Shown here: positions 24,736 to 35,135 of the stretch, in pieces
Layout of the letters: each line of letters begins with the position of its first letter
How positions within the stretch are numbered: position 1 is the stretch's first letter
IMG/VR virus record: IMGVR_UViG_3300045996_001274
Location: 1-40,809 of that record
Length of the DNA stretch: 40,809 nt
Origin: a virus
Reading direction: 5' to 3' (one strand)
Program-made: the position numbers and the translations under genes
The notes under the pieces: generated by a model
What the model was told of the DNA's origin: nothing
Databases searched by the model: none
Seen by the model: the letters and a program-made list of their open reading frames with translations, nothing else

Positions 24736-24751
24736 ACGGTTGTTAAACCGT
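24736..24751. terminator. Short hairpin at the integrase stop
   Basis: ACGGTT (24736-24741) and AACCGT (24746-24751) form a perfect six-base inverted repeat with a four-base loop, between the integrase stop and the tRNA core. No T-run follows in the leftward direction. It may weakly end the integrase message or be a protein-binding element of attP. Confidence 0.4.
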
Positions 24752-25905
24752 CATTTTCTCGCGGCCTCGGCAGATTGTTTTGCAATCTGTTTTGCAGCGA
24801 TACGCTCGCCGAGTGCCACAACGACCCGCTCGTGGTCAACATAGACCTTGCGGATTTGTGAGACGCGCTGCGGCGACCAGCCCATGATATCCGCCGCCTC
24901 GTCGTCGGTCAGCTGCCATTCGGTGAGCAGCATCGTGCAGAAGGTGCCGCGAACGTCGTGCAGATGCTTGAGGCGCTCGTTGCCATCCTCGTCGACGTGC
25001 TTGATCCCGGCGAGGTCGCGGATGCGGTTGAAGCTGCCGCCGAGGCCGTCGCCCGTCCACGGTAATCCGCGGCTGTTCACCAGCAACGTGTTGACGCCTT
25101 CGGCGCGCTCGCGCGTGCGCAGCTCGGCGAGCACGGCCTCGAGCTGGGGTGTCTGCGGGATGACCGCGCGGCGCCGCTTGCCGCGGCTGCGCTTGAGCGC
25201 CTTCTTGACGATCGCGAACTCGCCGACCTGGTCCCATGTGAGGGTGACGAGATCTTGGCGGCGTAGGCCAGTGACTGCCGCGAGCTGCAGCGCATCGATC
25301 AGGTGCGGCCGGCCTTCATTCCAGCAATGCCATTCGAACGCGGCCATATCGTCGTCGGTCCAGACGATCTCGTCGCGATCGGAGCCGCGATAGAGGTTGG
25401 GGATCTTCTGTGCGACGTTGATGGCGACGAAGCCGCGCAGGCGTGCGAACTCCAAGAGGGAGTTCAGCACCGTTATGCCGATATCGGCCGAGCGCGGTGT
25501 CTCGGCGCGTTCGTCGCGCCACTTAACGACCTTGGCCACCATGCGTGGATCGTTCCAGATCGTGCGCGGGAATTTGCCCCAGCGCTCTTCGATCAGATCG
25601 ATATGGCCGCGCCAGACGCGGCGCGTCGACGGGGCGAGGGCGATCCATTCGGGGCTCGCCTTGGCGGGATTGTCGTCTTCCTGCGGATTGACGGGGCACC
25701 ATTGCCGGATGACCCAGCGGAAGGTGGCGGCGTCGACCGATCGATCGTCGATCATCGCCGCGGCAATCGCCTGGTGGTCGGCCTTGGTGAGCGCTGGCTT
25801 GCGTGGGGCCTCGACCTTGCGGATCAGCGGGCCGCCGCGAAAGGCATAGATGTACCAGGTGACGGGCTTGCCCTTGCGCGCCGACTTGATGAACTGGACG
25901 CTCAT
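24751..25905 (-). CDS. int: Tyrosine-family integrase
   Basis: A 384-residue site-specific recombinase. The N-terminal part (about 1-75) is an arm-binding type domain, and a SAM-like core-binding domain with APSTRRVWRGHIDLIEERWG follows. The catalytic domain has Arg215 in VTGLRRQDLVTLTW, the HxxR box at 316-319 in LKHLHDVRGTF, and the nucleophile Tyr355 in QIRKVYVDHE. It inserts the phage at attB, here a tRNA-Gly(CCC) gene to judge from the adjoining core. The ATG at 25905 overlaps the stop of a 68-aa gene (ATGA). It is the last of ten leftward genes, so its expression should follow the leftward early promoter. The attP right arm lies within its 3' end. Confidence 0.95.
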   Translation of the reverse strand: MSVQFIKSARKGKPVTWYIYAFRGGPLIRKVEAPRKPALTKADHQAIAAAMIDDRSVDAATFRWVIRQWCPVNPQEDDNPAKASPEWIALAPSTRRVWRGHIDLIEERWGKFPRTIWNDPRMVAKVVKWRDERAETPRSADIGITVLNSLLEFARLRGFVAINVAQKIPNLYRGSDRDEIVWTDDDMAAFEWHCWNEGRPHLIDALQLAAVTGLRRQDLVTLTWDQVGEFAIVKKALKRSRGKRRRAVIPQTPQLEAVLAELRTRERAEGVNTLLVNSRGLPWTGDGLGGSFNRIRDLAGIKHVDEDGNERLKHLHDVRGTFCTMLLTEWQLTDDEAADIMGWSPQRVSQIRKVYVDHERVVVALGERIAAKQIAKQSAEAARK

Positions 25906-27689: not shown

Positions 27690-28126
27690 GCGGATTCCTT
27701 CCGAGTGTAGCGCTCGCGGGCGAGCAGGTTCGCTTCGTGAACGTGCATGATCCACGGCAGATCGGCGCCGGGCATGCAGCCGCGGTGGTTCCATTCGAGC
27801 GCGACGGCGAGCGCGAGCTGCTGGGCGAGCGTGGTGTTTTCCGGCGCGGCGGCGGCGCGGGTGGAAATGGCGGCGCGGGCGCTGGCAAGGTCGAGCCGGA
27901 TCTCTGCATGGTAGGCCTGAAGCTCGGGCATTGGCTCGCGGCGCACGACGGCGCGCCAGATGGCGACGGCGGCGCCCATTACGCGGGCGCGATCGTCGGC
28001 CTGCGCCTGGGTGAGCTTGCCTGCCTTCACTGCCTCGGGATCGGCGGCCAGGCGCTGGGCGAGCAGCTGCTCGGCGAATGCCGCGATCGAGCGCCAATCG
28101 CCATAGAGGGGCGGGGAACCGTTCAC
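27686..28126 (-). CDS. Hypothetical protein (146 aa), leftward operon
   Basis: The ATG at 28126 overlaps the previous stop, and this gene's stop overlaps the next ATG; both junctions are ATGA. The product begins MNGSPPLYGDWRSIAAFAEQ and is largely helical, with an Ala/Arg-rich middle (QAYHAEIRLDLASARAAIST) and a C-terminal LEWNHRGCMPGADLPWIMHV. No family is recognised. It is a well-formed coding frame with GC-rich third positions. Only its operon membership points to an early function. Confidence 0.7.
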   Translation of the reverse strand: MNGSPPLYGDWRSIAAFAEQLLAQRLAADPEAVKAGKLTQAQADDRARVMGAAVAIWRAVVRREPMPELQAYHAEIRLDLASARAAISTRAAAAPENTTLAQQLALAVALEWNHRGCMPGADLPWIMHVHEANLLARERYTRKESA

Positions 28127-29328
28127 AGGGCACCTGTCGCGACGCCGCCGAGCGTCATGTCGGGATCGCGGCGGCGAGGCTCGAACTTCTCGGCCAGGGC
28201 GGCGCCAGCGCGGACGCGTGCGAGCTGTTCCTCGAACGTGAGAGGCCGCGCGCGATCGGCGGCGATCTCACGAGCAAGGATCAGCCGCGCTTCCTCTTGG
28301 CCATGCTCGCGCACCAGCTCGCGGAAACGAAAGAGCTTGTCGCGCGGGATGCCTTCAGTTGCGCGGAAGCGCACAGCGCTGGGGGTAAGGCGGCCGGGTC
28401 GCTTCGGCGCGGGCAAGTGACCGCCCTCGGCCTCGAGCTCGGCCTTTAGCGCATCGCGAATGAAGTAGGCGGATGACTGGCCGATGCCGCACAGCTTGGC
28501 GGCACGTCGCACTGGCATGCCATCGAGCAGCTTCTGCCGAAGGGCAGCCTTCTGTTCCGGGGCGATCCAGCGGCGCGAGTCGGCCTGGTTGTGGCGTACG
28601 CCGTCCAGATCGCAGCCGGGGAGGCTCTGGCCTTTGCGGCGCAATCTCTGGACCAAGCGGTTGCGGATGCGCCCAATCGACGTGTGGCTGACGCCAGTAC
28701 GTTCGTTGATCTTCTGAGCGCCAAGGCCTTCGAGGAACAGAACCTCGACCTCTTGCCGCTTGTCCTTCGAGATCTTGACGCCCGAATAAGGTTCGCCTGC
28801 GCCCGGTGCCGGGAGGGGCGCCTTGTCCCGCGCCTTCAGTTCGCGGTTGTAGCGGCGCCGCTCTTCGGCGACCCGGCCCGCGCTCAGACCGAGCCTAAGC
28901 TGGATATCGATACCCTTGTAGCCCTTGCGGAGTGCGAAGCGCAGGCGCTCGATGCCCTCGGGCAACAGCCTGCCGCTCGCGTCGCGCTCTGCCGGGCGAT
29001 AACCGCGGGCGGTGCACTGCGCGATCACGATCGCGTTGCAGGCTGCGCTTTCGCTGACGCCGAAGTGGGCACCGATCCGAGCAAAACCCCAATTGCTCTC
29101 GTCGCGAAGGGCGACCGCTTCGGCCAGGCGCGCGCCGACAAGCTTTGCCTCGCGGCGGGGCGGGGGCGCGCTCGACCGGATTCCGAGCTTCGCGGCCATG
29201 ACGTAGATCGCGCGCCAAGAGCGATCGGGGAGGGCATCACACGCACCGCTAATCCCCTCGCGCGGATAGACATCGTTGAGGATGGCGCGTTCTTCGCTGG
29301 TCCAGGCGGGGGCCTTGGGGCGCGGCAT
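28123..29328 (-). CDS. Multi-helix-turn-helix DNA-binding protein (401 aa)
   Basis: The ATG at 29328 overlaps the previous stop by one base. The N-terminus (PAWTSEERAILNDVYPREGI) resembles a SANT/Myb-like domain. At least two later helix-turn-helix units are visible: FLEGLGAQKINERTGVSHTS with GRIRNRLVQRL (about 205-235) and LLDGMPVRRAAKLCGIGQSS (about 270-292). A third, VALRDESNWGFARIGAHFGV with SESAACN, lies near 75-100. The protein is unusually long for a phage regulator and looks like an array of DNA-binding modules. It may control early genes or bind host DNA. No catalytic motif is visible. Confidence 0.75.
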   Translation of the reverse strand: MPRPKAPAWTSEERAILNDVYPREGISGACDALPDRSWRAIYVMAAKLGIRSSAPPPRREAKLVGARLAEAVALRDESNWGFARIGAHFGVSESAACNAIVIAQCTARGYRPAERDASGRLLPEGIERLRFALRKGYKGIDIQLRLGLSAGRVAEERRRYNRELKARDKAPLPAPGAGEPYSGVKISKDKRQEVEVLFLEGLGAQKINERTGVSHTSIGRIRNRLVQRLRRKGQSLPGCDLDGVRHNQADSRRWIAPEQKAALRQKLLDGMPVRRAAKLCGIGQSSAYFIRDALKAELEAEGGHLPAPKRPGRLTPSAVRFRATEGIPRDKLFRFRELVREHGQEEARLILAREIAADRARPLTFEEQLARVRAGAALAEKFEPRRRDPDMTLGGVATGAL

Positions 29329-29480
29329 CAGTTGGCGACCACGCGAGAGAGGACAATCTCGACCGCGAAACCGAACCAAACGACCAGGATGCTACGACCT
29401 TCAGCGTAGTCAATGTCGTCGTCGTCGACGCCACCGGACCAAGGATAGGTCCGGATCCTCGGAAGAAGAGAGCGGATCAT
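29328..29480 (-). CDS. Small membrane-like protein (50 aa)
   Basis: The ATG at 29480 overlaps the previous stop (ATGA), and the TGA overlaps the next ATG. The protein reads MIRSLLPRIRTYPWSGGVDD, then an acidic linker and a hydrophobic C-terminal segment (SILVVWFGFAVEIVLSRVV). This may be one membrane helix with the N-terminus in the cytoplasm. Function unknown. It sits in a run of small overlapping leftward genes. Confidence 0.62.
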   Translation of the reverse strand: MIRSLLPRIRTYPWSGGVDDDDIDYAEGRSILVVWFGFAVEIVLSRVVAN

Positions 29481-29759: not shown

Positions 29760-29867
29760 TCAGCGCCACAACGCGAAGGCGAGCACGGCCCAGAAGCCGA
29801 TGCCGAATGCGAGGCCCGCGGCGAGCGCGCGGCAGCACCCGCGGCAGAACCGGCCCGCGCGGCTCAT
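29760..29867 (-). CDS. Small membrane protein (35 aa)
   Basis: The ATG at 29867 overlaps the stop of the 42-aa gene (ATGA). The peptide begins MSRAGRFCRGCCRALAAGLA and ends with a hydrophobic helix (FGIGFWAVLAFALW). Cys8, Cys11 and Cys12 are near the start. One transmembrane segment at about 14-34 is predicted by eye. The coupling and the composition support a real gene; the role is unknown. Confidence 0.55.
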   Translation of the reverse strand: MSRAGRFCRGCCRALAAGLAFGIGFWAVLAFALWR

Positions 29868-29992
29868 TGGGCGGCGATCCCGTAGGCCATCGCGAACGCG
29901 ACGACGACCCCCGCGATAAGGCCGAGGGCAAGGTTCTTCCAGGCATCGCTCTCACGATGCTGCGCGAACATGGGATGAGGACGATGCGGCAT
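29864..29992 (-). CDS. First leftward early gene, small membrane protein (42 aa)
   Basis: A GGAGG ribosome site lies five bases before the ATG at 29992, so this is the first gene of the leftward operon. It encodes MPHRPHPMFAQHRESDAWKN followed by a hydrophobic helix, LALGLIAGVVVAFAMAYGIA. The Shine-Dalgarno bases lie in the 3' arm of a perfect hairpin just upstream. A small membrane protein made first after infection could act in superinfection exclusion or host takeover; that is inference. Its stop overlaps the 35-aa gene's ATG. Confidence 0.62.
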   Translation of the reverse strand: MPHRPHPMFAQHRESDAWKNLALGLIAGVVVAFAMAYGIAAQ

Positions 29993-29997
29993 GCGGA

Positions 29998-30016
29998 CCT
30001 CCGATCAAATCGGAGG
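29998..30016 (-). promoter_or_regulatory. Hairpin covering the first leftward ribosome site
   Basis: CCTCCGAT and ATCGGAGG are perfect 8-base arms around a three-base centre. In the leftward message the 3' arm contains the GGAGG that precedes the ATG at 29992. Pairing would hide the ribosome site until the hairpin is opened, for example by a protein, a second RNA or translation. It lies directly between the predicted leftward start site and the first gene. Confidence 0.65.
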
Positions 30017-30018
30017 CT

Positions 30019-30048
30019 TGCATAATGTTAGCAGATGCTAACAGTCAA
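30019..30048 (-). promoter_or_regulatory. Leftward early promoter (PL-like)
   Basis: On the minus strand a -35 TTGACT (30048-30043) is followed after 17 bases by TTATGC (30025-30020), or after 18 by TATGCA (30024-30019), as the -10. The perfect operator palindrome at 30026-30043 occupies the spacer. This promoter would drive all ten genes down to the integrase and be shut by the repressor. Confidence 0.6.
30026..30043. promoter_or_regulatory. Operator O1, in the leftward promoter
   Basis: TGTTAGCAGATGCTAACA is a perfect palindrome with 8-base arms and a GA centre. It is the best-formed of five related 18-base sites around the repressor gene (shared form TGTYRGC, eight-base halves around a two-base centre). 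Confidence 0.8.
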
Positions 30049-30054
30049 CAACAA

Positions 30055-30072
30055 TGTTGGCAAAAGCTGAAA
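30055..30072. promoter_or_regulatory. Operator O2, upstream of the leftward promoter
   Basis: TGTTGGCAAAAGCTGAAA fits the same form as the other operators, with an imperfect right half (AGCTGAAA against AGCTGACA). It lies just upstream of the leftward -35, within a few bases of the repressor gene's end, so cooperative binding with O1 is plausible. Confidence 0.55.
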
Positions 30073-30075
30073 ACG

Positions 30076-30798
30076 CTAAAACGCCACCAGTTCGTCCCAC
30101 GGTATGATGCGATGCATATGCGCCACGTCTTTCCGATCCACACGGAAGGATATCGAAGGGTTGAACTGCTCAAGCTCGATGTACGACGCGCTCACCTTGA
30201 CCAGTCGCTTAGCCAGAACCTTGTAGATTCGCTCGCCATCGTCCTCCGGCTTGCGCAGCTGAACCACCACGTATTCGCGCGCCTTGGGAGCGCGCTTTGG
30301 ATCGACATAGGCGACTTCGCCCGGCTCGTAGCGCGGCTCCAGTGAAGTGCCGGTGAAATAGATCGCATAGACGTCGCGCCGGTTGTCGAGCGATGCCGGC
30401 CGGCGAACATGGTCGACGACCTCATTGTCCAGCATCATCGTCTCGACCCAAACGCTCGCGTCTTCGCCGGTGAATTCGAGGTCGGCGCATTCTGCGGTTC
30501 CCATCACCGGAACGTCGCGGGGCCGATCGTCGCCGCGGAACGCGAGGCGTGGTGCCTGAACCACGGGCGGCGATGCATCTTTCTCATCCGCGCGTGCGCC
30601 GGCCTCGAACTCGGCAAACGTCACGCCGATCGCGGCGAGAAGCTTCTCGATGGTCCTATGGTGCGCGGCACCCCGGCTTCGGATGTTGGCGAAGATGCTG
30701 CGATTGACTTGCGCCCTGGTGGCCCATCCGTTTTCCGACAAGCCTACCGGCTTCACCGCCAGCAGCCGTTCGTAGAGGGAGGTTGGGTCGCGATCCAT
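30076..30798 (-). CDS. CI-like repressor with S24 peptidase domain
   Basis: The ATG at 30798 gives a 240-residue repressor; earlier in-frame codons run through the operators and are rejected. The N-terminal part (about 5-65) is helical, with NGWATRAQVNRSIFANIRSR as a probable helix-turn-helix. The C-terminal half is an S24/LexA-type domain: YFTGTSLEPRYEPGEVAYVD contains the likely nucleophile Ser152, and ERIYKVLAKRL the partner Lys193. No Ala-Gly or Cys-Gly lies at the usual 30-40 residues before Ser152. The protein would maintain lysogeny by binding the five operators on both sides of its gene. The promoter was not identified with confidence. Confidence 0.9.
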   Translation of the reverse strand: MDRDPTSLYERLLAVKPVGLSENGWATRAQVNRSIFANIRSRGAAHHRTIEKLLAAIGVTFAEFEAGARADEKDASPPVVQAPRLAFRGDDRPRDVPVMGTAECADLEFTGEDASVWVETMMLDNEVVDHVRRPASLDNRRDVYAIYFTGTSLEPRYEPGEVAYVDPKRAPKAREYVVVQLRKPEDDGERIYKVLAKRLVKVSASYIELEQFNPSISFRVDRKDVAHMHRIIPWDELVAF

Positions 30799-30800
30799 GT

Positions 30801-30818
30801 TGTCGGCATTAGCTGACA
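30801..30818. promoter_or_regulatory. Operator O3, next to the repressor start
   Basis: TGTCGGCATTAGCTGACA fits the operator form, a near palindrome differing at two positions per half. It ends two bases from the repressor ATG, so binding here should control repressor synthesis. Confidence 0.65.
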
Positions 30819-30834
30819 AGGGCAAAGAATGCGC

Positions 30835-30852
30835 TATCAGCCTTTGCCAACA
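30835..30852. promoter_or_regulatory. Operator O4, middle site
   Basis: TATCAGCCTTTGCCAACA shares the right half TGCCAACA with the leftward site O2 (reverse complement TGTTGGCA); the left half is degenerate. It lies midway between O3 and O5 and has the weakest left half of the set. Confidence 0.5.
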
Positions 30853-30860
30853 AATATCGC

Positions 30861-30890
30861 TTGCAATGTCAGCGGATGCTAACATATCAA
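30861..30890 (+). promoter_or_regulatory. Rightward early promoter (PR-like)
   Basis: A -35 TTGCAA (30861-30866) is followed after 18 bases by TATCAA (30885-30890). The operator O5 fills the spacer exactly. The expected start is about 30897, two bases before the Cro-like ATG at 30899, so the message would have almost no leader. The -10 match is moderate. Confidence 0.55.
30867..30884. promoter_or_regulatory. Operator O5, in the rightward promoter
   Basis: TGTCAGCGGATGCTAACA has the right half TGCTAACA identical to that of O1 and the same GA centre. It lies between the predicted -35 and -10 of the rightward promoter, the same geometry as O1 in the leftward promoter. Confidence 0.75.
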
Positions 30891-33877: not shown

Positions 33878-34086
33878 TGCGAACCGAGGGTGGGCCGCGG
33901 CCGTCGAAGGTCATGTACGACATCGGCCAGGATAAGCACGGTCGTCGCCTGGAGCTGCGACTGGAGGGCGAGGATTGGACGCTGTGGCGTGGGGCTGCGA
34001 ACCAGCGGGACGATGAACAGGCCATCGGCCTGAACCTGAACCATCTGCGCACGATGGTCGCGATCGTTCGGGGCGCGGACCTATGA
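33877..34086 (+). CDS. Small hypothetical protein (69 aa)
   Basis: The ATG at 33877 overlaps the previous stop and is eight bases after a GAGG ribosome site. Another in-frame ATG at 33871 is too close to that site. The product has a compact alpha-beta look: MYDIGQDKHGRRLELRLEGE, then DWTLWRGAANQRDDEQAIGL and NLNHLRTMVAIVRGADL. It is a common type of small phage protein of unknown function. The stop overlaps the next ATG by four bases. Confidence 0.65.
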   Translation: MRTEGGPRPSKVMYDIGQDKHGRRLELRLEGEDWTLWRGAANQRDDEQAIGLNLNHLRTMVAIVRGADL

Positions 34087-35135
34087 GTAAGATCGAGTGG
34101 ACCGGCGAGACGTGGAACCCGCTGGTCGGCTGCACCGTCCACTCGTCGGGGTGCAAGGGCTGCTATGCGATGAAGGACGCGTATCGCCTGATGCACAATC
34201 CGCATCCGGCGATCGCGGCGAAGTTTGCCGGCACCGCCAAGATGGTCAACGGCCACGCGGTGTGGACGGGCCGGATCAACTTCGACGAGGCGACGCTGCT
34301 GAAACCGCTCAAGCGGCGCGGGGCGACCACCTACTTCGTCAACAGCATGTCGGACCTGTTTCACCAGGCAGTGACCGACGAGCAGATCGACCGGATCTTC
34401 GCAGTGATGGCGCTTTGCCCGCAGCACACGTTTCAGGTGCTGACGAAGCGCGCTGATCGGATGCGGGCCTATCTGAGCGACCCGGCTTGGCCCTCGCGCG
34501 TTAGTGACATCGTCAACGCCTGGCCGGAAAAGGAAATCGGCCACGGCAACGAGTTCTCGGGCGACTTCGCGCTTTGCTTCGGTAGTCAGCTGCCCAACGT
34601 GTGGCTGGGCGTTTCGGTCGAGGATCAGCCCGCGGCCGATGAGCGCATTCCGGATTTGCTGGCGACGCCGGCGGCGGTGCGCTTCCTGTCGTGCGAGCCG
34701 CTACTCGGGTTCATTGATCTCGGAGCCGCTTGGCATGGTGAGAGCGCACTAGCCAGCGAATGCTGGGGTGAATGTAATTGGTGCCGCAACGGTGCCAGCT
34801 TCCCGCCGCTGTGGAACTGTCAGCAAGGCCGCCAGTCCGGCGCCGACGCTGACAAGATGCGATCGGGCGTCGATTGGGTAATCTGCGGCGGTGAGAGCGG
34901 ACCGCGCGCCCGGCCTATGGAGGCCGAATGGGCGCGGTTGCTCCGCGATCAATGTGCTTCCGCAGGCGTGCCGTTTTTCTTCAAGCAATGGGGCAACTAC
35001 CTTCCGGCAGGGCAGGTCGCGACGCAAACAGGGCTGTGGAGCCCATCGGGCGACAATCCGCCGCCGCTCTGCACCACGAAGAAGAACGCCGGCCGGCAGC
35101 TCGACGGAGTCGAGCACAGCGGGATGCCGGCATGA
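34083..35135 (+). CDS. DUF5131 (phage Gp37/Gp68) family protein
   Basis: A 350-residue protein of DUF5131. It begins MSKIEWTGETWNPLVGCTVH with SSGCKGCYAMKD following. Cys17, Cys24 and Cys27 form a C-x6-C-x2-C cluster, which resembles a radical-SAM-like iron-sulfur motif. Later conserved segments are TYFVNSMSDLFHQAVTDEQI, HTFQVLTKRADRM, and VRFLSCEPLLGFIDL, and the end has WVICGGESGPRARPMEAEWA. The family is widespread in phages and often next to methyltransferases; its reaction is unknown, and DNA modification is suspected. A Cys/Trp-containing insert (about 220-240) may bind another metal. Confidence 0.88.
   Translation: MSKIEWTGETWNPLVGCTVHSSGCKGCYAMKDAYRLMHNPHPAIAAKFAGTAKMVNGHAVWTGRINFDEATLLKPLKRRGATTYFVNSMSDLFHQAVTDEQIDRIFAVMALCPQHTFQVLTKRADRMRAYLSDPAWPSRVSDIVNAWPEKEIGHGNEFSGDFALCFGSQLPNVWLGVSVEDQPAADERIPDLLATPAAVRFLSCEPLLGFIDLGAAWHGESALASECWGECNWCRNGASFPPLWNCQQGRQSGADADKMRSGVDWVICGGESGPRARPMEAEWARLLRDQCASAGVPFFFKQWGNYLPAGQVATQTGLWSPSGDNPPPLCTTKKNAGRQLDGVEHSGMPA

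Follow-up and report, generated by a model that had tools for sequence, protein, structure and literature searches.

The immunity region and its operators

The window analysed here, 40,809 bases long, is a complete IMG/VR virus record. Its immunity region holds a cI-type repressor gene, a divergent Cro-like gene, two predicted promoters and five operators. The genes and sites of the switch are as follows (coordinates in the window, strand, feature):

24751-25905, minus strand: tyrosine integrase (PF00589, E=6e-9; phrog_1), at the distal end of the leftward genes, 4 kb downstream of PL
30020-30048, minus strand: predicted leftward promoter PL (-35 TTGACT at 30048-30043, -10 region at 30027-30020), TTGACT and spacing conserved in relatives
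30026-30043, no strand assigned: operator O1 (OL1), TGTTAGCAGATGCTAACA, in the PL spacer, position conserved in relatives
30055-30072, no strand assigned: operator O2 (OL2), 3 bp past the repressor stop codon, position conserved in relatives
30076-30798, minus strand: cI-type repressor, 240 aa, with an N-terminal five-helix HTH domain and a C-terminal S24 (LexA/CI-like) domain
30801-30818, no strand assigned: operator O3 (OR3-like), 2 bp upstream of the repressor ATG
30835-30852, no strand assigned: operator O4 (OR2-like), O3-O4 spacing of 34 bp, identical in L002, L003 and L007
30861-30890, plus strand: predicted rightward promoter PR (TTGCAA-18-TATCAA), identical hexamers and spacing in L002 and L003
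30867-30884, no strand assigned: operator O5 (OR1-like), filling the PR spacer, O4-O5 spacing of 32 bp, identical in L002, L003 and L007
30899-31195, plus strand: Cro-like protein, 98 aa, assigned by position and by homologous ORFs in L002 and L003
31593-32060, plus strand: CII-like regulator of the rightward operon (phrog_101, E=3e-19; PF06892, E=1.5e-6)

The original prediction had proposed five related 18-bp sites starting at 30026, 30055, 30801, 30835 and 30867, and all five are present there, with 0, 1, 0, 1 and 0 mismatches to TGTYRGCNNNNGCYRACA for O1 to O5, respectively. When the whole window (40.8 kb) was scanned for further sites, these five remained the only matches with at most one mismatch to TGTYRGCNNNNGCYRACA (0.09 expected; 0 of 100 shuffles reach five); a looser scan of the window, allowing up to three mismatches, was uninformative (20 matches vs 16.5 expected). 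A weight matrix built independently from 15 operators of three relatives only, leaving out the window's own sites, puts O3, O2, O5 and O4, in that order, in the top four places in the window and O1 in sixth place.

O3, O4 and O5 lie between the repressor and the divergent Cro-like ORF, and O2 and O1 lie behind the repressor stop codon, giving a 3+2 layout. The proposal that one operator fills the -35/-10 spacer exactly in each promoter holds for PR, where TTGCAA (30861-30866) is followed by the 18 bp of O5 and then by TATCAA (30885-30890). It holds only nearly for PL, where O1 overlaps the -35 TTGACT (30048-30043) by one base and extends to the -10 region. A consensus promoter scanner applied to the window reported neither PR nor PL, and both promoter calls rest on conservation across relatives, not on the scanner.

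The cro ATG is found only 8 nt past the PR -10 (likewise in L002 and L003), so the cro mRNA is predicted to be leaderless or nearly so. The same is predicted for the repressor mRNA, whose ATG is 2 bp from O3 in the window and in L002, L003, L006 and L007. Leaderless mRNAs are established in Alphaproteobacteria, with 171 mapped in S. meliloti (PMC3616915). The Cro-like protein has no Pfam or PHROG match, and a search of the viral contigs with this protein alone found no relative. Other genes of the two operons include one (34083-35135, plus strand, rightward operon) for a DUF5131 / phage Gp37-Gp68 family protein of unknown function, a family also annotated near the repressor of Rhizobium phage RR1-A, and one (28123-29379, minus strand, leftward operon) for a 418-aa protein with several HTH motifs resembling sigma-region-4 and transposase DNA-binding domains.

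The repressor and its relatives

The repressor matches Pfam PF00717 (peptidase S24; E=1.5e-6) and phrog_4 (transcriptional repressor; E=7e-8). Its AlphaFold model (mean pLDDT 75) contains five N-terminal helices and a beta-rich C-terminal domain, and the best PDB fold matches of the model are lambda repressor entries (2ho0, 3bdn and 2hnf). The HTH has no Pfam match and is visible in the predicted model only, and a sequence-profile search of solved structures gave no match. In the S24 domain, Ser152 and Lys197, which correspond to the Ser-Lys dyad of self-cleaving repressors, are invariant among 11 aligned sequences. Despite these conserved residues, SOS-type self-cleavage of the repressor appears doubtful as judged from the alignment, because neither Ala-Gly nor Cys-Gly occurs in the aligned cleavage region (residues 95-106) in any of the 11 sequences.

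Relatives of the repressor were drawn from viral contigs and genomes; the named-phage collection contained no close relative of the immunity-region DNA. Relatives with 43-79% of the repressor shared keep the 3+2 layout, the spacings and both promoters, while the site sequences drift. L002, L003 and L007 have all five sites in place (O5-O4 32 bp, O4-O3 34 bp, O1-O2 29-30 bp) and the intervening DNA has diverged, and L006, L010, L011, L012 and L013 retain the operator arrangement with altered half-sites. This conservation of layout, spacing and promoters supports the proposed immunity region, in which operators flank the repressor and control two divergent operons, in the absence of repressor-binding data.

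Two of the relatives come from named bacteria, L004 from Sphingosinithalassobacter portus and L005 from Sphingomonas abaci. The latter (L005 4917-5720) is a lone repressor homologue beside an apparent tRNA gene, with O5- and O3-type sites only and no left operators, and it looks like a prophage remnant or a domesticated repressor.

A conserved hairpin at the left promoter

Aligning the region behind PL revealed a conserved inverted repeat just outside the interval covered by the original prediction. Its 5' arm (GCCTCCGA-like) is complementary to the Shine-Dalgarno sequence (SD) of the first leftward gene. The features of this leader, which we call the lock hairpin, are:

30009-30017, minus strand: 5' arm of the lock hairpin (GCCTCCGAT), located after the PL -10 and reaching slightly beyond the predicted start (30013-30011), defined by folding and by comparison of 37 leaders
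29997-30005, minus strand: 3' arm of the lock hairpin (ATCGGAGGT), including the SD GGAGG (30002-29998)
29864-29992, minus strand: first gene of the leftward operon, 42 aa, with one hydrophobic stretch, start codon 6 nt past GGAGG

Read on the minus strand, the order is TTGACT-O1-TTATGCAA-GCCTCCGAT-TTG-ATCGGAGGT-CCGC-ATG. PL directly abuts the repressor gene, with no terminator or rex genes in between. Rfam gave no match in the immunity region, and the 42-aa protein has no Pfam match above the cut-off.

All 12 leaders that were chosen irrespective of the hairpin fold the lock (dG -12.8 to -19.0). Measured in 37 leaders from the initial base of the -35, the 5' arm starts at 28-33 nt and occupies a median of nt 31-38, and the start codon follows at 50-59 nt; the mean dG of these leaders is -16.0 at full length vs -2.3 when cut at nt 37. 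No transcription start has been mapped, and +1 was predicted from the -35/-10 spacing: sigma-70 spacing places it around nt 36-38. In 36 of 48 leaders, nt 36-38 is also where the first purine at least 6 nt past the best -10 falls, although the group to which the window belongs has weak -10 boxes. With starts so predicted, RNA initiated at PL should lack most or all of the arm, and RNA coming from upstream carries it. The predicted probability that the SD is unpaired has a median of 0.0003 in read-through RNA vs 0.25 in RNA cut at nt 37 (47 leaders), and the SD is predicted to be more open in the PL-started RNA in 44 of the 47. This result does not depend on the exact start, because the SD is predicted to open for any RNA starting at nt 34 or later. 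Bulged arms leave the SD partly open even in read-through RNA in L010, L011, L042, L022, L050, L051 and L064. Most of the genes that come first after the lock are unrelated to one another (19 related pairs among 47 proteins), which indicates that the leader, not the gene, is conserved.

Distribution of the hairpin

Among 35 repressor relatives from viral contigs, 20 (L030 by eye) have the lock downstream of the repressor and on its strand; the other 15 have none, and in some of these PL is absent behind the repressor. Some of the 20 have quite different operators (L018, L028, L037 and L038). A pattern scan blind to the repressor (TTGAC-22/32-GCCTCCG-3/9-CGGAGGC) returned 46 stretches, of which 22 have a start codon right after the SD, all 22 with a gap of 24-28. 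In a control with the arm displaced to 40-50 nt, a start codon was found in only 5 of 37, and one of these five is the same lock. Upstream of the pattern-scan positives that were checked we found HTH-only, HTH+S24 and S24 repressors, some of them below the Pfam cut-off, and for several of the checked positives no repressor was recognised. The exact short-loop pattern occurs once in 385 alphaproteobacterial genomes, in an already known prophage, so the lock is no common type of host leader.

Rhizobium phage 16-3 (NC_011103), with annotated operators and promoters, is among the named relatives. Its PL (TTGACT-17-TATAAC, with the annotated -10 at nt 24-29) is directly followed by TCTCCTC (nt 30-36) and then by A, and this arm pairs with the SD GAGGAGA of a leader ORF about 50 nt further on, across inner hairpins. 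The same pairing of arm and SD is found in AP-16-3, NV1.1.1, RHph_X2_25 and RHph_TM3_3_14B. Of 17 stretches found by scanning with a 16-3-style pattern, 16 directly follow a C-repressor homologue, and the operators there vary.

We also observed that the 16-3-type leaders (L107 3455-3520; L110-L114 and L154-L170) contain an extra hairpin followed by ACCAC, which is retained in the PL RNA and has no known function. In Rhizobium phage RR1-A (L108 3546-3734), a strong intrinsic terminator lies between the repressor and the next promoter and there is no SD lock. This is a single case, and we do not claim a general rule by which terminator and lock exclude each other, as intrinsic terminators are rare in the other relatives without a lock too.

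Proposed mechanism and alternative explanations

Given the observed sites and their layout, repressor dimers would bind O5, O4 and O3 on one side and O1 and O2 on the other, shutting PR and PL; O3, beside the repressor start, makes repressor autoregulation possible, and the Cro-like protein probably reads the same operators. The operator spacing is compatible with cooperative binding, looping and PRM activation, for which there are no biochemical data. PL directly follows the repressor gene and has the same orientation, with no terminator in between; in a lysogen, the polymerase making the repressor mRNA would therefore continue into the lytic left operon. In such read-through RNA, the 9-nt arm (30017-30009) would fold onto the SD (30002-29998) and the first left gene would remain untranslated, and Rho-dependent polarity may, by inference, silence the rest of the operon. 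RNA started at PL would begin within or after the arm, leaving the SD free for translation. Only PL is in the path of repressor transcription; PR is outside this path and feeds a gene predicted to be leaderless. The lock fits this asymmetry between PL and PR.

We consider it quite likely that the locus is a lambda-type immunity switch with an added translational lock, a reading in which the transcription starts, repressor binding, translational effect and polarity are all inferred. The switch model first put forward for this region, presented as complete, was not wrong but left out the leader hairpin beside O1 and PL, the predicted leaderless starts of cro and cI, and the fact that PL follows the repressor gene and faces the same way. 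The switch itself is ordinary in kind, of a known lambda-like type; the lock beside it is apparently widespread.

The hairpin might instead act within the PL transcript, for instance by stabilising its 5' end, by antitermination (like put or boxB) or by limiting translation of the first gene from its leader. In favour of such a role, the hairpin is strong and conserved and stands at the head of the operon, and the 16-3 group keeps an inner hairpin in its PL RNA. We nevertheless find it unlikely. With the arm beginning 28-33 nt after the initial base of the -35, a -10 cannot be fitted far enough upstream of it (unless TTGAC is not the -35); the annotated -10 of 16-3 abuts the arm; and the 3' arm is the SD region of the next gene in every case.

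Ordinary lambda-like immunity alone, with repressor at O1 and O2 road-blocking the read-through and a hairpin without consequence in vivo, deserves little credence as well. Two bound dimers would indeed sit in the read-through path (O2 begins 3 bp past the repressor stop codon), but this leaves unexplained why the arm is conserved across unrelated operators, repressor types and first genes. Repressor on O1 and O2 could itself stop read-through, and the lock would then be a backup.

The arm might also be merely a pyrimidine-rich promoter discriminator that resembles an anti-SD sequence without any regulatory pairing, as the core CCTCC complements any strong SD. For this question we used an arm-swap permutation test instead of column counts, as the MAFFT alignment of the leaders misregistered the 5' arms (loop lengths differ). 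On average, arms pair with their own SD region at -15.7 kcal/mol vs -11.6 kcal/mol when swapped, and 0 of 5000 permutations reached so low a value, whether the 12 unselected leaders or the full set of 20 repressor-derived leaders were used; 5' windows displaced to other parts of the promoter gave about -5 kcal/mol. The pairs flanking the SD core vary on both sides, and the match of arm and SD in L019 extends to 12 bp. The preference for the own arm is weaker in a pattern-picked set of 17 (100 of 5000 permutations as low), which is in favour of the discriminator. The result for the unselected set, the covarying flanks, the 12-bp match and the displaced-arm control, which lacks the start-codon geometry, make this explanation very improbable.

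As for the protein that reads the operators, recognition-helix residue 35 is A in L006, L008 and L010, where the half-sites are TGTAAGC, and I, V or F where they are TGTYRGC. Although weak and limited to a few cases, this correspondence points to the repressor itself as the reader, on sequence comparison only. No binding data exist that would rule out another phage or host protein at the 18-bp sites, but we can hardly credit this, given a layout conserved around the window's repressor family, a repressor fold that matches lambda CI and the (weak) residue 35 correspondence.

Returning to the switch with a translational lock, we think that the lock is probably a general insulation device of temperate phages with unrelated repressors and operators, mainly in Alphaproteobacteria on present evidence. 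The PL discriminator and the first transcribed bases would double as an SD-sealing arm, such that the lytic left operon would be translated from PL RNA alone, unaffected by repressor read-through. Repressor transcription heads directly for the lytic left promoter in many temperate phages, and a lysogen risks lytic expression by read-through. The proposed lock would solve this without a terminator or an extra protein, by means of eight or nine promoter bases that are transcribed only from upstream, and would add a second, translational layer to the textbook genetic switch. In this analysis the proposed device recurs in dozens of temperate phages of diverse kinds, with S24, S24+HTH or HTH-only repressors upstream of it, and it extends to phage 16-3, the switch of which has been under study for decades.

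Comparison with known systems

Like bacteriophage lambda, the window has an HTH + S24/LexA-like repressor with a cro-like gene diverging from it, three operators on the right and a CII-like gene in the right operon; in both, operators lie within PR and PL, and PL follows the repressor gene and points the same way. Lambda has three left operators (the window has two). The window also differs from lambda in its operator spacing of about 3 helical turns, its predicted leaderless cro, the leader lock at PL, a repressor without Ala-Gly or Cys-Gly at the CI/LexA-type cleavage position, and the lack of rex genes or a terminator before PL.

Phage 16-3 (C repressor, OL1/2, OR1/2, PL, PR and Pc) shares with the window a homologous S24 domain (31% identity over 57% of the query), the gene order, an operator inside the PL spacer and a PL right behind the repressor gene. 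It also shares the arm between the -10 and the predicted +1 that pairs with the leader SD, which is newly noticed in 16-3 here. It differs in its 14/12-bp ACAA/TTGT-type operators, its two right operators and a long loop with inner hairpins, and no similarity to the window repressor was detected in the N-terminal DNA-binding part of the 16-3 repressor.

No precedent for a prophage read-through lock was found in the papers searched. In the fold-back inhibition of IS10/Tn10, read-through RNA of the transposase gene hides the SD, and RNA from its own promoter does not. There, a transposon is guarded from outside promoters; here, a prophage would be guarded from its own repressor transcript. In phage T4, the SD of gene e (lysozyme), and also of soc and I-TevI, is sequestered in long transcripts initiated upstream; for gene e these long transcripts are early ones, and its late promoter, just upstream of the ribosome site, starts inside the structure, and RNA without the 5' part is well translated, an effect of about 100-fold (PMC3014915). 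The arrangement proposed here is like that of T4 gene e in that the SD is sealed in the long transcript and free in RNA from the gene's own promoter (in our case by prediction). In T4 it times late genes in a lytic phage, whereas here it would separate lysogenic repressor transcription from the lytic early operon.
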